From NCBI GenBank assembly GCA_035274845.1, contig DATENU010000015.1:310001-374000 (forward strand): 64,000 nt of DNA. The letters are read 5' to 3'. This stretch comes from Chthoniobacterales bacterium. Its GTDB lineage: Bacteria > Verrucomicrobiota > Verrucomicrobiia > Chthoniobacterales > UBA10450. The notes beneath the pieces are model-generated. The model saw only the letters and a list, made by a program, of their open reading frames with translations. It was not told the origin of the DNA and did not search any database. Within the stretch, counting starts at the first letter, position 1. Every line of letters begins with the position of its first letter. Shown piece after piece: positions 53,956 through 63,253 of this stretch. The position numbers were made by a program, and so were the translations under genes.

Positions 53956-54477
53956 ATGAATACCCTGCAGTCTTTTCTCGGCGCGGCCTTCGTCGTTTTG
54001 TTTTCTTCGAATATCCAGGCGAAGTCCCCCGCCTCGTATGGGTTTATTTCGGGTGTTTACCAGAAGGGCCACAACGTGACCGAACCACGTGCGAAATCGT
54101 CCAAGTTCGTTCAGTTGACTGATGCGGGCTTTTTCGTCAGCGGGTCTCAGGCGTCATATTACGTGAGCATCCAGATGTCAGCCGAAACACCTGCCCCATA
54201 CTTCATGCAAGCAATCTTTGAGAATCCGAATGATCCGAAGAAACCATTTGTGGAGCAAAAGGTAATATCTCCTGGAGAACCCGCCCGGTCGATTTTTCAT
54301 GGGCCGGTCAAAGGGCTTCGCATTTCACGCTCTTATCATTTAACGATTAAGCTGTTCCGGAAGAAGGATGAGCCAACCCCATTCGATGTCCTCGAGCAGA
54401 CCGTTCGCTCATACATCGACACCACCGGGCCTGAGATCAAAATAAAGAAGGGAATGGCCTATCAACCACTTCAGTAG
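53956..54477 (+). CDS. Hypothetical secreted protein
   Basis: 173 residues. A signal peptide (MNTLQSFLGAAFVVLFSSNIQAKS) is followed by a beta-rich mature part (SASYYVSIQMSAETPAPYFMQAIFENPNDPKKPFVEQKV) like a small Ig-like or lipocalin-type domain. The tail DTTGPEIKIKKGMAYQPLQ is basic. No family is recognised. GC content is visibly lower than in its neighbours, and a GTTAG motif precedes the start, so lateral origin is possible. Followed by tRNA-Ala on the other strand. Confidence 0.6.
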   Translation: MNTLQSFLGAAFVVLFSSNIQAKSPASYGFISGVYQKGHNVTEPRAKSSKFVQLTDAGFFVSGSQASYYVSIQMSAETPAPYFMQAIFENPNDPKKPFVEQKVISPGEPARSIFHGPVKGLRISRSYHLTIKLFRKKDEPTPFDVLEQTVRSYIDTTGPEIKIKKGMAYQPLQ

Positions 54478-54524
54478 CGGGACGAAGAAAACCGGCATTT
54501 CCCGGCCTGCCTGGTGATTTGGGG

Positions 54525-54600
54525 TGGTGGAGCCTAGGGGATTCGAACCCCTGACCTCCTCAATGCCATTGAGGCGCTCTACCAACTGAGCTAAGACCCC
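54525..54600 (-). tRNA. tRNA-Ala (anticodon GGC)
   Basis: A complete cloverleaf of 76 nt: acceptor GGGGTCT/AGGCTCC with the G3-U70 pair that identifies alanine tRNA, D arm with TTAGCTCAGTTGGTAGAGC, anticodon stem CCTCA/TGAGG with loop ATGGCAT, T arm AGGGGTTCGAATCCCCT, and an encoded CCA end. No degeneracy. Confidence 0.97.
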
Positions 54601-54682
54601 GCGGAAGAATTTCGATTTTCGCCCCGGCGTCGCGTTTTGCAACGGGAAGTTGCATCCGCGGCCCAGGAATCTACCATGACGA

Positions 54683-55072
54683 ATGCCGATGCTAGGACGT
54701 ATTTTGGTGATCGCATGGCTCACCTGCGTCATTCTGCCCGCCGCTCTCGCCGCCGATCAGACCACTGCGGTCTGGAGTGATGGCCACATTTCCCCGCTGA
54801 GCGACGAGGAACTAACTCGTTATGCCACAGCCTCGCCCGGTGCGGGATATCCCGAAGAGGCGCAGAAAACGAATGCCACCGGGAGCGGCCTTTACGAACT
54901 TCGGATCGATAAGGGCGGCAAGGTCACCGTCGTGGCGATCGTTAAAAGCAGCGGCAACGCTGTGCTCGATAAAGCGGCGACCACCACCTTCCGGAAATGG
55001 CGGTTCAAACCGGCGGTCTTTCGCTCGGTCAGAATCCCCGTGAGCTGGTCGGTGAACAAAGTTCGTAAATAA
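54683..55072 (+). CDS. TonB C-terminal domain protein
   Basis: 129 residues (ATG 54683; ATG 54689 also fits). A signal/anchor (ILVIAWLTCVILPAALA) is followed by AGYPEEAQKTNATGSGLYELRIDKGGKVTVVAIVKSSGNAVLDKAATTTFRKWRFKPA, the full TonB-C pattern with YPxxA, G-x-V-x-V, LD-AA and W-x-F-x-P. There is no proline-rich spacer long enough to span the periplasm, so it is a stand-alone exported TonB-C domain. Adjacent to tRNA-Ala, divergent. Confidence 0.8.
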   Translation: MPMLGRILVIAWLTCVILPAALAADQTTAVWSDGHISPLSDEELTRYATASPGAGYPEEAQKTNATGSGLYELRIDKGGKVTVVAIVKSSGNAVLDKAATTTFRKWRFKPAVFRSVRIPVSWSVNKVRK

Positions 55073-56037: not shown

Positions 56038-56445
56038 TCAACCGTGGCGGCGACGTTTGACGTGCAGCTGAGCGAGGGCCTTCTGAAGCGACGCCTGGAC
56101 AGCGACGACTTCCTCCGCGCCGAGATCTTCCTTCATGGCTTTCCGGGCCCGCTCGACCGCGGCTTCGGCCGCATTTTCGTCAATAACCGCAGGCTCCAGC
56201 GCCATGTCGGTCAAAACCGAAACCGAAGCGCCGGTGATTTCGACGAAGCCTTCGCCGATGGCCAGAAAAGTTTCCTTTCCGCCCTTGAGCACACGGACTT
56301 CGCCGGGATTCAGGGTGGTGAGCAATGGGACGTGATTCGGATAAACGCCGAGTTCGCCCTCCGCGCCTGGCAGAGTGACCATCTCGACGTCCTCGGAGTA
56401 CGCGGTCGCCTCGGGCGTAACGATCTCAAGTTTCAGCGTGGCCAT
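56038..56445 (-). CDS. atpC: F1Fo ATP synthase subunit epsilon
   Basis: 135 residues. MATLKLEIVTPEATAYSEDVEMVTLPGAEGELGVYPNHVPLLTTLNPGEVR is the standard beta-sandwich start, followed by a helical hairpin (AVERARKAMKEDLGAEEV). Inhibitory and coupling subunit of F1. Last gene of the operon, 13 bp after atpD. Confidence 0.95.
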   Translation of the reverse strand: MATLKLEIVTPEATAYSEDVEMVTLPGAEGELGVYPNHVPLLTTLNPGEVRVLKGGKETFLAIGEGFVEITGASVSVLTDMALEPAVIDENAAEAAVERARKAMKEDLGAEEVVAVQASLQKALAQLHVKRRRHG

Positions 56446-56458
56446 AACTCAACTTTCG

Positions 56459-57880
<1,422 letters not shown>

Positions 57881-58759
57881 TTAGCCGCCGACCGCCATCT
57901 GGGCGGTCGAGATTTCGAGCAGCTCGGTAGTGATGCTCGCCTGGCGCATCTTGTTGTATTCGAGGGTGAGATCCTTGATGAACTGCTTCGCGTTGTCGGT
58001 CGCATTCTTCATCGCCACCATGCGCGAGCTGTGCTCCGAAGCGCGGGCGTCGAGGATCATTTGGTAAACCTGGTAGTGGAGGTAATACGGGAGCATCACG
58101 TCGAGCACGCCTTCGGGAGTTGGCTCGAAGAGGTAGCCGATCATCGGGTCCTGGCTCCCATTCGCCTCGGCGCCTTCGGCCGCAGCCTGCGGCAATTCGA
58201 AGCTCGAAATTGGCAGAAGCGTCCGCACCACCGGTCGCTGATTGATGGTGTTGATAAAATGAGTGAAAAGCACCGAGACCTTGTCGACTTCGCCGTTGAG
58301 AAATTTCTCGATGCAAAACCGGGCGATATCCTTGGTCTCGACGAAGGCGGGCGCATCCTTCAATTGAAAATCCGCCAGCAAATCCCGCCGGGTGCGCGCG
58401 ATGAACTGCCGCGCTTTCGCGCCCGAGACCACGTAACTGGTTTTGTCGTTATCGAACTTGGCTACTTCGCGAAACAGGTTGGTGTTCAACGCGCCGGCGA
58501 GGCCTTTGTCGGTGCTGATCACGACCACGAGCTCCTTTTTCACTTCCCGGACCTGGAGAAGCGGGTGGAGCTTTGAATCGGTGCGCTGCTGGAGGGAGAC
58601 CAGGACGCGATTCATCAGGGTCGAATACGGACGGCCGGAAAGGGCGAGGTTCTGCGCCTTGCGCATCTTCGACGCGGCCACCATCTGCAACGCCTTGGTG
58701 ATCTGCGACGTGTTCCGGATCGACTTGATCCGGCGCCGTATGTCTTGGGTGTTCGCCAT
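57881..58759 (-). CDS. atpG: F1Fo ATP synthase subunit gamma
   Basis: 292 residues, central stalk. MANTQDIRRRIKSIRNTSQITKALQMVAASKMRKAQ at the start and the C-terminal AMKNATDNAKQFIKDLTLEYNKMRQASITTELLEI are the two conserved coiled-coil helices. The gene comes 3 bp after the inserted ORF6N gene, not directly after atpA as usual. Confidence 0.97.
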   Translation of the reverse strand: MANTQDIRRRIKSIRNTSQITKALQMVAASKMRKAQNLALSGRPYSTLMNRVLVSLQQRTDSKLHPLLQVREVKKELVVVISTDKGLAGALNTNLFREVAKFDNDKTSYVVSGAKARQFIARTRRDLLADFQLKDAPAFVETKDIARFCIEKFLNGEVDKVSVLFTHFINTINQRPVVRTLLPISSFELPQAAAEGAEANGSQDPMIGYLFEPTPEGVLDVMLPYYLHYQVYQMILDARASEHSSRMVAMKNATDNAKQFIKDLTLEYNKMRQASITTELLEISTAQMAVGG

Positions 58760-58762
58760 TTT

Positions 58763-59341
58763 CTAAGCTCTCCCTTTCGCGCCGTAGCGGGCCCGGCGCT
58801 CGCGAACATGAAAACCGATCTCCCGTCTCTGTTTTTGAGACGGCGCGAGCAATTGTCGGATGGCCGCAAAAAGCTGGGCGATTGCCTCATCGTGGCTGTC
58901 CAGCCGCCGTTCGAGCTGGGAGAACTTCGCGGCCAATTCCGTATTCGCCGAAATCATTTCGCGCAAGCGGACGAAGGCACGCACGACGCGCACGCTCGCT
59001 TCCACGGCGATGTCACTGTTCAGGACGCTAGCTAACATAATCGCACCATGCTCGGTAAACACCCAGGGCCGATATCTCCGGCCACCTTGTTTTGAGGTCG
59101 CAAATTGCGACCTCAAACTCACAAGCTCCTCCGTTGTAAGTTGAAAGGCGAAGTCCTTGGGAAATCTCTGCCGGTTCCGCTTGAGTTGCTCATTCAAACG
59201 CTTGGTCGTGACTCCATAGAATGCCGCCAAATCCGAATCGAGCATGACGCGCTGGCCACGCACGAGATGGATCGCGTTTTCAACGGCGACAATCTCCTGG
59301 GGGCGGGTCATATCCGGTTCGAAATTCCGCAGTGAAATCAT
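58763..59341 (-). CDS. ORF6N-domain protein inserted in the ATP synthase operon
   Basis: 192 residues; alternative start ATG 59311. [50 protein letters not shown] is the ORF6N (KilA-N-linked) domain, followed by [40 protein letters not shown] and a basic coiled-coil tail. These proteins are DNA-binding regulators or antirepressors of phage and mobile DNA. It abuts atpA (TAA then ATG, no gap) and is followed 3 bp later by atpG, so it must be co-transcribed with ATP synthase. No other phage gene is near. Confidence 0.9.
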
Positions 59342-60880
<1,539 letters not shown>

Positions 60881-60892
60881 AGGATGGTTAGG

Positions 60893-61285
60893 TTAAAGTT
60901 GTTGCTGGAGCCGATGGAGGCGGTTGCGCACGCTGCTGTCCCAGACATCGCTGCCGACGCGGATGCGCATGCCGCCAAGCAGCTCAGGGGTCACGACAAA
61001 TTTCGCGGTCAGGTCGCCGCCATATTTGCGTTTCAAATTGGCGACGATCTGCTCGCCCGCTTCCGGGGGAAGCTCGGTCGCGGTCTCGATCGTGGCGCTG
61101 CGTTTTTCCACTTCGAGGCGGAGGAGACGTTTGTAGGCCTCGAGCGCCTTGATGTAATTGCGCGGCTTCTTTTCGATCAACGACTTGACCAGGGACGCGA
61201 CCCGGCTGCTATCGAGCCGGCCATCGACGTAACTCGCGCGAAGAAGTTCCTTCGCCAGTTGCCGCGTCTCTTTGTTGATCTTCAT
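60893..61285 (-). CDS. atpH: F1Fo ATP synthase subunit delta (short form)
   Basis: 130 residues, where ~175-185 is common. The conserved C-terminal part is present (ELPPEAGEQIVANLKRKYGGDLTAKFVVTPELLGGMRIRVGSDVWDSSVRNRL, including the GGxxIRVGD-type motif). The N-terminal six-helix domain, which binds alpha, is shortened to about 70 residues (SRVASLVKSLIEKKPRNYIKALEAYKRLL). The frame has no evident earlier start, so the short form is probably real. Confidence 0.88.
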   Translation of the reverse strand: MKINKETRQLAKELLRASYVDGRLDSSRVASLVKSLIEKKPRNYIKALEAYKRLLRLEVEKRSATIETATELPPEAGEQIVANLKRKYGGDLTAKFVVTPELLGGMRIRVGSDVWDSSVRNRLHRLQQQL

Positions 61286-61297
61286 GGCGCCGTTGTT

Positions 61298-61843
61298 CTA
61301 GGAGGCGAGCTGGCGGGACGCTTCATCCTGCAAGCGCCTCTGATCTTCCGAAGTCAGGACCTTACCGGTGACTTTCGCCGTGGTGTCCACGACGAGCCGC
61401 CCGAGCTCCCGCTTCAATTCCGCCATCGTCTTTTCGTGCTCGATCGCGCTCGCTTCGCGCGCCTTGGCCATGATCTGTTCCGCGGCCGTGACGGCTTCCT
61501 GCTGTTTGCGTTCGGCGACGTTGGCCGCGCTTTCCCGCGCTTCGTCAATCATCTTTTGCGCTTGGGCGTTGGCCTGGGCCAGGATCTCCGCATGGCGTTG
61601 CTCCGCTTCCGCGAGCTGCTGCTTGATCTTCTCGGCATTCAACAGGCCTTCCGCGATCCGCTGCCGGCGCTCTTCGAGCACCTGCAGGATCGGCTTGTAA
61701 GCGAACTGCTTCAGGACCAGCGCGACGATAATGAAACTGATGACCTGCGAGAGGAACAACTTTGGTTCCCACCCGAACTGTTCACCAGTTTCGCGCGCCT
61801 GGTCGAGAATGCCCGCGGCTAAGTGCAACGCGATCATTCGCAA
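61298..61843 (-). CDS. atpF: F1Fo ATP synthase subunit b
   Basis: 181 residues: one N-terminal membrane span (FLSQVISFIIVALVLKQFAYKPIL) and a long charged coiled coil (EERRQRIAEGLLNAEKIKQQLAEAEQRHAEIL...). Stator stalk of Fo. Only one b-type gene is present, so the stalk should be a homodimer. Starts 3 bp after atpE. Confidence 0.95.
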   Translation of the reverse strand: MRMIALHLAAGILDQARETGEQFGWEPKLFLSQVISFIIVALVLKQFAYKPILQVLEERRQRIAEGLLNAEKIKQQLAEAEQRHAEILAQANAQAQKMIDEARESAANVAERKQQEAVTAAEQIMAKAREASAIEHEKTMAELKRELGRLVVDTTAKVTGKVLTSEDQRRLQDEASRQLAS

Positions 61844-61846
61844 TCC

Positions 61847-62050
61847 TTATTTCGGTGCGAGGTAGAGCGCGTAAAACACGATCGCTTCCGCGAACGCGAT
61901 TGCCAGAATCGCCTGCACGAGAATTGGCGTCGCCGCGCCGGGATTGCGGCCGACCGCCGAGGCCGCGCCCATGCCGATCAAGCCCACGCCGATGGCCGCG
62001 CCAAGCGCCGCCAGACCGATGTGAATGCTTCCGCCCATTTCAGCTAACAT
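61847..62050 (-). CDS. atpE: F1Fo ATP synthase subunit c
   Basis: 67 residues from ATG 62050 (MLAEMGG); an ATG four codons upstream is also possible. Two membrane helices with the loop GRNP, and the ion-carrying Glu in FAEAIVFYALYL. The position that is Gln in sodium-type rings (before the loop) is a hydrophobic residue, so proton coupling is inferred. Confidence 0.95.
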   Translation of the reverse strand: MLAEMGGSIHIGLAALGAAIGVGLIGMGAASAVGRNPGAATPILVQAILAIAFAEAIVFYALYLAPK

Positions 62051-62131
62051 TGGTATGAACATATTTTTTCTTTCTACTTGGTGTTGGTTTAGCGGCCTCC
62101 GCGGGAACCACGGTCATAACCGCCAAAGTTT

Positions 62132-63061
62132 TTAGTGGTGAGCCTCATGTCCCGGCTCGTGTTGCGCGATCAACAGGGTGAAGACCGCGGTCAAAAGCAT
62201 GAAGACCAGCGCCTGCACCAGGCCGACCAGAAGCTCCATGAAATAAAATGGAATCGGGAGGAGCCACGACAAGGAAGGCACCATGGTCGACATGGTTTCG
62301 AGAATCGTTTCGCCGGCATAAACGTTGCCGAAAAGCCGGAAACTCAGCGAGATAGGCCGGAACAGGATGGAAACAATTTCCAGCAATCCGACCGCGAAGA
62401 AAATCCCGACCATGGCGATTTTCATCAGGCCTTTGCTGTCGCCTTTCGGACCAAAAATGTGGACGAGAAATCCCCCGACACCGTTGGCCTGAATGGCCCA
62501 GATAATCCAGCAGGCGAAAAAGATCATCGCCATCGCGGTGGTCATGTTGAGGTCGGCGTTACCGCCGCGGAGCAATGGGCGAGTGAGATGAAACTGGCCA
62601 TTCGCGGCGTGTTCTCCCCAGCCCACGGTGCCTACGCCGGGGATCAGCCCGAACCAGTTCACGAAGAGAATGAAAATGAAAATTGTGGCGAAAAACCAAA
62701 ACGTCCGTTTCACCAGCACGGCGCCGATCATTCCTTCCAGGAAGTTGTGCAGGCTTTCGACCAGCCATTCCCAGAAGTTTTGCAAACCCGTGGGCACTGG
62801 TTTGATCCGTCGGGTAGCGAGACGAGCGCAGATCAAAATCCCCGCGGCGACGATCCAGGTCACCACCATCGAATTGGTCACGGCCAGCGGGCCGACGTTA
62901 AAAAGAATATCGGGCTTGAGCGGGATCCCGTGTTCTTCCTTAACCGCGTGCTCGTCCTTCACTGCCTGCTCGGGCTCTGCCGCGAAAGCCGGGGCGGCCA
63001 GGCCGCCGAACAGGCCGAGGATCAGCGCGATAAGGATGAATAAGGAAAAACGGCGGAGCAT
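62132..63061 (-). CDS. atpB: F1Fo ATP synthase subunit a
   Basis: 309 residues from ATG 63061, just before the first hydrophobic segment (MLRRFSLFILIALILG); the ATG at 63157 would add 32 residues without family support. After a signal-like segment and an acidic stretch rich in Glu/His come five or six spans, with the essential Arg in PISLSFRLFGNVYAGE and WFGLIPG near the middle. Ion channel subunit of Fo, first gene of the operon. No atpI upstream. Confidence 0.93.
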   Translation of the reverse strand: MLRRFSLFILIALILGLFGGLAAPAFAAEPEQAVKDEHAVKEEHGIPLKPDILFNVGPLAVTNSMVVTWIVAAGILICARLATRRIKPVPTGLQNFWEWLVESLHNFLEGMIGAVLVKRTFWFFATIFIFILFVNWFGLIPGVGTVGWGEHAANGQFHLTRPLLRGGNADLNMTTAMAMIFFACWIIWAIQANGVGGFLVHIFGPKGDSKGLMKIAMVGIFFAVGLLEIVSILFRPISLSFRLFGNVYAGETILETMSTMVPSLSWLLPIPFYFMELLVGLVQALVFMLLTAVFTLLIAQHEPGHEAHH

Positions 63062-63253
63062 GGATTGTTTCTTGGAGAAGCCGCGGCCCGATGTTTCCGG
63101 GGCTGTGGCGGCCGCGGAAGCGATGCACACCATACAAGGGGCGCTGGCGTCGCGCATACCAAAGCGTGTTTTATCGCGATGACAAGAGTGAAAATTGTGA
63201 ATTGTGATCAGTGAATCGTGGATTGCCTTAACCGGCCGTCACTATTCACCAAA

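Follow-up and report, generated by a model that had tools for sequence, protein, structure and literature searches.

An ORF6N gene within an ATP synthase operon carries in its reading frame a palindrome that is probably the binding site of its own protein

The stretch of DNA analyzed here (the window, 64,000 nucleotides of the Chthoniobacterales bacterium assembly GCA_035274845.1, contig DATENU010000015.1) contains an ATP synthase operon on its minus strand in the order atpB-E-F-H-A-[ORF6N]-G-D-C, raising the question of what an ORF6N gene does between atpA and atpG and which DNA its product might recognize. According to the list of open reading frames, supported by Pfam matches for the two neighbors of the ORF6N gene, atpA (F1 alpha) occupies window positions 59342-60880 and atpG (F1 gamma) 57881-58759, with the upstream part of the operon, atpB, atpE, atpF and atpH, at 60893-63157, and atpD (F1 beta) and atpC (F1 epsilon) read at 56459-57871 and 56038-56445, respectively. 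The ORF6N gene (58763-59341, minus strand, 192 amino acids) begins with an ATG at 59341, directly after the atpA stop codon that ends at 59342, and 3 bp (58760-58762) separate its stop codon from the ATG of atpG. Its product matches the ORF6N profile PF10543 over positions 2-86 of 86, at E 1.4e-33 and with a score of 115.4 bits where the cut-off is 27.8; for Phage_pRha (PF09669) it scores only 19 bits, below the cut-off of 29.9. The intact gene with 0- and 3-bp junctions described in the initial annotation is therefore borne out by the coordinates and the profile match. A sequence scan of the minus strand found neither a sigma-70-like promoter nor a terminator within the ORF6N gene, which fits co-transcription with the atp operon. 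The term phage-type fits the gene only in part: in three phyla the family is frequent on chromosomes (in 36 of 145 genomes, 37 of 148 and 31 of 249), a viral collection yielded only 34 relatives, and with atp genes on both flanks the window copy does not lie in a phage or prophage. Elsewhere in the window, a tRNA-Ala (GGC) gene lies at 54525-54600 on the minus strand, beneath a spurious listed reading frame (54409-54732).

Whereas atpG was found in all eight genomes of the genus, an ORF6N gene occupies the atpA-atpG junction in this genome (G000) and in G006, in gaps of 582 and 581 nt, compared with 85, 84, 34, 42 and 37 nt in the genomes lacking it (G004, G002, G005, G001 and G007, respectively). 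The reading frame is open in both copies, which share 65% nucleotide identity and for which dS is saturated. In G003 (locus L023) the end of atpA is altered, reading STWQ where relatives have TNPV-type ends, and is followed by a relic, an ATG resembling the beginning of an ORF6N gene together with a perfect palindrome of the ORF6N type; no other trace of an ORF6N gene was found in the atpA-atpG gap of that genome. Given the shared insertion in G006 and the relic in G003, an assembly artifact is very unlikely. A clade of G000, G006 and G003 with a shared ancestor, defined before the tree of the atpG-atpD region was seen, was rejected by that tree (p-AU 8e-5). Since G003 branches apart from G000 and G006, the insertion is either old and repeatedly lost or was gained more than once. 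In G004 (L021) and G002 (L022) a short inverted repeat, TGTAGGGCG...CGCCCTACA, stands in place of ORF6N, suggesting that the junction repeatedly accepts insertions. The absence of ORF6N from the site in five of the eight congeners indicates that the gene is dispensable, and the earlier suggestion that it is an addictive passenger finds no support.

Within the gene, positions 59091-59117 form a perfect 27-bp palindrome of two 13-nt arms around a single central nucleotide, which reads TTTGAGGTCGCAA-T-TTGCGACCTCAAA on the coding strand (59117 to 59091), encodes LRSQFATS, and is the putative binding site of the gene's own product. The surrounding FQL...LRSQ...FTEQG region of the protein is typical of the relatives that we retrieved. 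At the same locus in G006 the sequence is TTTGATATCGCAA-A-TTGCGATATCAAA, differing from that of G000 by four arm substitutions, each of which is compensated in the opposite arm. Throughout the genus, 17 of 18 loci with ORF6N hits contain a palindrome (some hits overlap one gene), the exception at the threshold of this screen being L016, and the palindromes vary in sequence between genes, with a few identical or almost identical exceptions (L008 and L011). We then turned to ORF6N genes gathered by protein or profile from many phyla, together with regions fetched by place, and kept those that had both flanking protein motifs and had not been chosen by palindrome; 24 duplicates, 29 rows in which the two anchors were not both present and 28 rows picked by palindrome (23 hits in L137-L155 and five from a viral pattern scan) were dropped. 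Among the resulting 233 distinct genes, 214 have a palindrome at the same place and 19 have none above threshold, whereas control windows of the same length contain one in only three genes upstream and ten downstream, leaving windows that run off the contig out of the count. The proportion is similar in each source: 59 of 63 genes from the window's phylum, 81 of 85 from mixed phyla, 25 of 29 and 22 of 25 from the phyla of genomes G152 and G153, respectively, and 27 of 31 viral genes. From ±2 to ±12, 106 of the 214 palindromes are perfect, and a single mismatch is present in another 86. That constraint on the protein gives rise to the palindrome was rejected by recoding the genes synonymously according to each gene's own codon use: 5.0 palindromes would be expected against the 214 observed, and 0.1 high-quality palindromes against 114. 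Codon choice yields to the palindrome: of 104 arginine codons located there, 79 are AGG, which accounts for 10% of arginine codons elsewhere in the same genes.

The pattern of variation indicates the level at which this constraint acts. Positions ±4 to ±13 form Watson-Crick pairs in 1973 of 2140 cells, the ±4 pair doing so in 211 of the 214 genes when 76 would be expected, and columns ±4, ±5 and ±7 to ±13 covary strongly; the bases at -6 (T), -3 (C) and -2 (A) are nearly fixed. The core is, moreover, read in two frames, by 188 and 26 genes, the smaller group having VVANCDHL in place of LRSQIATS. One could imagine that the palindrome functions as a hairpin in the mRNA, for attenuation or as an RNase site, because the arms covary and the ±1 pair shows no covariation across the 214 genes, which is compatible with a 3-nt loop. 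However, the coding strand shows no excess of G-T over A-C mismatches among the 2140 pairs (34 compared with 47), making a wobble-tolerant RNA stem unlikely, and an RNA stem would leave unexplained the code, described below, that links the palindrome to the helix-turn-helix of the protein. We regard an RNA function as very improbable. The palindrome sequences vary while their arms remain complementary with no G-U preference, and therefore, as judged from these alignments, the constraint on the palindrome is on DNA. Mutational upkeep, in which template switching perfects the palindrome and no function is involved, would agree with the observation that palindromes in arrays (see below) keep their symmetry even where the local protein does not match them; nevertheless, control windows of the same stretches contain almost no palindromes, and mutation by itself gives no reason to expect coupled change in residues 47, 48 and 51 of the protein. 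Upkeep of this kind appears the least probable of all the explanations considered.

That coupled change was revealed by scanning for associations between palindrome bases and protein columns in the 188 genes of the main frame, excluding the columns encoded by the palindrome itself and permuting within clusters of related proteins. Whereas the permutation maxima have 95% points of 4.2 to 5.5, base -4 is associated with column 51 at z 39.9 and with column 48 at z 21.7, and base -7 with column 47 at z 28.7; base -5 is associated with columns 48 and 51. Outer bases -8 to -13 are associated with columns 88-92, although these adjoin the palindrome-encoded columns and are thus weaker evidence of contact. 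Residues 47, 48 and 51 are encoded about 60-115 nt from the palindrome. Counting all 214 genes where the residue could be aligned, A at -4 accompanies Gln51 in 87 of 88 cases, G at -4 accompanies Glu51 in 75 of 82, and C at -4 accompanies Arg or Lys51 in 37 of 37, while Lys47 is found with G at -7 in 124 of 134 cases and with A at -7 in none of 73. Side chains are well known to have base preferences, Gln for A, Glu for C, and Arg or Lys for G, and the pairing of residue 51 with base -4 agrees with them. Genes of the second frame, which took no part in the scan, obey the code in 24 of 25 cases, as do 26 of 27 viral genes. On a tree built without the tested columns (204 of the 214 rows, 196 and 198 of them bearing the traits), base classes changed 68 times, residue classes 68 times and the joint classes only 70 times, and independent pairs never changed in the opposite direction. 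The same coupling separates the two copies at the atp locus, where, in both arms, G or A at -7 goes with Lys or Met at column 47 and G or T at -8 goes with Tyr or Lys at column 92 (G000 and G006, respectively). The palindrome and the protein have thus coevolved, base with residue, and binding of the protein to its own palindrome is strongly supported by these sequence comparisons.

An AlphaFold2 model of the window protein (mean pLDDT 85.7, pTM 0.70), with a structure alignment that used 83 of the 204 available sequences (the window's own and 203 references), places residues 46-55 in the second helix of a helix-turn-helix. Helices 35-42 and 46-55 precede a strand, helix 70-80, a loop (81-92) and a further strand (93-95), and the C-terminal part consists of helices 110-147 and 152-165. 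Helix 46-55 (codons at 59177-59206, minus strand), the second of the helix-turn-helix, would be the recognition helix, and its K47, R48 and E51 match G at -7 and G at -4 of the window palindrome. Residues 86-90 (GGRRY; 59072-59086, minus strand), are a candidate wing and equivalent to columns 88-92, which are associated with bases -8 to -13, and the long predicted helices of residues 110-165 (58847-59014, minus strand) may serve in dimerization. The ORF6N protein is therefore predicted, on the strength of the model, to be a winged-helix DNA-binding protein, with an N-terminal winged-helix domain and a C-terminal part of long helices. Similarity to known structures is limited: Foldseek returned no match at E<=0.001, a sequence search of the PDB gave two chance-like hits up to E 1, and winged-helix matches among solved structures were weak (Z at most 6.2). 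The predicted fold resembles that of MerR/RacA-like proteins (57 residues of RacA bound to DNA at 2.4 A, Z 5.1) and DACH/Ski winged-helix domains (Ski-like, Z 6.2); because every Z is below 8, perhaps only a common arrangement is shared with either group. The earlier designation of the gene as a regulator is well supported, as the predicted DNA-binding protein has a probable target that can be read directly in the gene.

Taken together, the explanation that we favor, with moderate confidence, is that the ORF6N gene encodes a small winged-helix protein, probably a dimer, for which the palindrome in its own reading frame serves as the cognate operator, most likely for autorepression. A cognate site within its own gene is what an autoregulator would be expected to have, and one appears to be present here. 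Residues 47, 48 and 51 of the recognition helix would read half-site bases -7, -5 and -4, with Gln51 pairing with A, Glu51 and Arg48 with G:C, Arg or Lys51 with C:G, and Lys47 with G, while the outer bases would probably be read by the wing. The bound protein would then most likely repress its own expression, the internal site acting as a roadblock to elongating polymerase or looping to a site at the promoter. With the operator inside the gene, the regulator would be self-limiting wherever it is inserted, even at a site without a promoter such as the one between the atp genes. To an operon of such importance, a roadblock in its interior could carry a cost. How far a bound repressor blocks transcription depends on the flux from the promoter, and several polymerases together can dislodge it, as described for LacI (PMC4132739), so that a strongly transcribed atp operon could read through the bound site and tolerate it. 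We infer physical binding, dimerization, repression and this tolerance from the alignments and the model.

The position of the palindrome within the operon and upstream of atpG, where a bound protein could be polar, could alternatively mean that binding tunes atpG-D-C relative to the upstream genes. This is hard to reconcile with the palindrome-bearing ORF6N genes found elsewhere in the genus and across phyla, and with the absence of the insertion from five of the eight congeners, and we consider such tuning quite improbable. Searching the eight genomes of the genus for near sites (0-2 mismatches) found eight, every one of them within an ORF6N gene, a gene fragment or the relic of G003, and hits with three mismatches were at the level of the control; no atp or other promoter is thus implicated, and the result speaks against any larger regulon built on near-perfect sites. 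Nothing therefore favors the initial proposal that the gene controls the atp operon, nor did anything in the analysis bear out that its product is made under energy-replete conditions. Similarly, the core GGTCRCAANTTGYGACC occurs at 28 distinct sites in 145 genomes of the phylum, where a control pattern has none; all but one fall within ORF6N genes or their remnants (27 sites), the single exception (in G020) comparing with an estimated 0.5 or so expected. In the viral collection the core pattern matches at least 120 stretches; five among the matches listed coincide with an ORF6N hit, and the matches are mostly due to chance.

Not all palindromes are explained by a single internal operator. A further palindrome is located 150-420 nt upstream in 25 of 210 genes, compared with 5 of 210 downstream, and some of these lie 27-60 nt ahead of an in-frame ATG; none was found upstream of the window's own ORF6N gene. 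Upstream palindromes resemble the gene's own site in the variable half-site bases (a resemblance reached in 0 of 2000 permutations), but they match residue 51 of the protein in only 14 of 32 cases (12.0 expected), so that plain duplication of the operator does not explain them. Upstream of the ORF6N gene at L375, four palindromes of different specificity with an exact spacing of 34 bp follow a truncated ORF6N gene, and at L404 three in-frame palindromes, only one of which fits residue 51, are spaced 33 bp apart and form an 11-residue protein repeat. Copies in one genome are for the most part 65-85% alike along the gene, and no shared ends were seen. Genome G146 (L310, L315-L321) is rich in ORF6N copies and remnants accompanied by local repeats, and several copies in G146 and G136 lie near contig ends. 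Simple autorepression accounts for the internal site, and the extra sites hint at cross-talk.

Such non-cognate palindromes and arrays near ORF6N genes would also be consistent with a system of immunity or incompatibility, in which the protein acts mainly in trans to silence incoming or neighboring ORF6N genes that share its specificity; the need of each newcomer to escape the resident would then drive specificities apart. The very frequent switching of specificity classes (68 changes on the tree of 204 rows, 196 scored), the 60 distinct six-base codes among 214 genes and the adherence of viral copies to the same code (26 of 27) point in this direction. However, among 69 pairs of paralogues in the same genome one pair has an identical code, compared with 3.5% between genomes, and mean identity is equal, so orthogonality is not clear; we regard immunity as a less likely alternative. 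The tandem spacing of 31-34 bp could instead reflect an origin or recombination site, the protein being an initiator that acts within its own gene, as does RepC of repABC plasmids, for which oriV lies within repC and RepC is described as an incompatibility factor (PMC3155836, PMC2783167). The majority of copies here are chromosomal, though, and Pfam finds no catalytic or replication domain in the window protein, leaving this alternative improbable.

If autorepression through an internal operator is correct, ORF6N would represent a large family of regulators from bacteria and phages, hardly studied so far, with the DNA target written in each gene, and hundreds of natural examples would supply a protein-DNA recognition code before any experiment. 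It would also suggest how a regulator can endure at a site that lacks a promoter, as in the atp operon, and would open the function of solitary ORF6N genes to direct testing. Furthermore, conserved motifs by which Pfam families are defined may stem from constraint on DNA and not from protein function.

Several known systems share parts of this arrangement. The O protein of phage lambda has binding sites within gene O, at the origin; these are several iterons, whereas ORF6N has a single covarying palindrome across the family. Intragenic operators with a transcriptional roadblock are exemplified by PurR at purB. As in our proposal, a repressor such as LacI bound within a transcribed stretch can stop polymerase (PMC4132739). 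Unlike in the LacI and PurR cases, the ORF6N operator would lie in the coding sequence of the regulator itself, throughout the family and with coevolving specificity. Among the sources consulted, RepC, with an origin within its own gene, appears to be the nearest precedent: like ORF6N it acts inside its own coding sequence and is tied to incompatibility, but it is a plasmid replication protein with an A+T-rich origin, and the word palindrome is absent from the main texts of the two papers (PMC3155836, PMC2783167). A search of the open-access literature found no description of an internal palindrome or DNA target for ORF6N, although an earlier description is possible. ORF6N and KilA-N are both listed in the Bro network of phage regulators (PMC10111431). 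Some palindrome was seen in 10 of 30 Bro-N loci, with no common center. Genes of the sister family KilA-N (PF04383; L416-L439) show the same kind of architecture, with an analogous palindrome that has a GAATTC-like center in 17 of 24 loci and arms that are paired and covary at ±5 to ±10 with several pair types, and it encodes the NPDFNxxEFDGIKxxAG stretch where the reading frame was found. Its center and arms differ from those of ORF6N. Tentatively, and with rather less than even confidence, we suggest that ORF6N and KilA-N genes are self-addressed, with a DNA address held in the reading frame, so that the motifs LxSQxxTS and NPDFNxxEFDG would be largely by-products of the palindrome; address and reader would switch specificity jointly, as phage immunity and plasmid incompatibility groups do, and the arrays of differing palindromes beside some genes would mark cross-talk between such elements.
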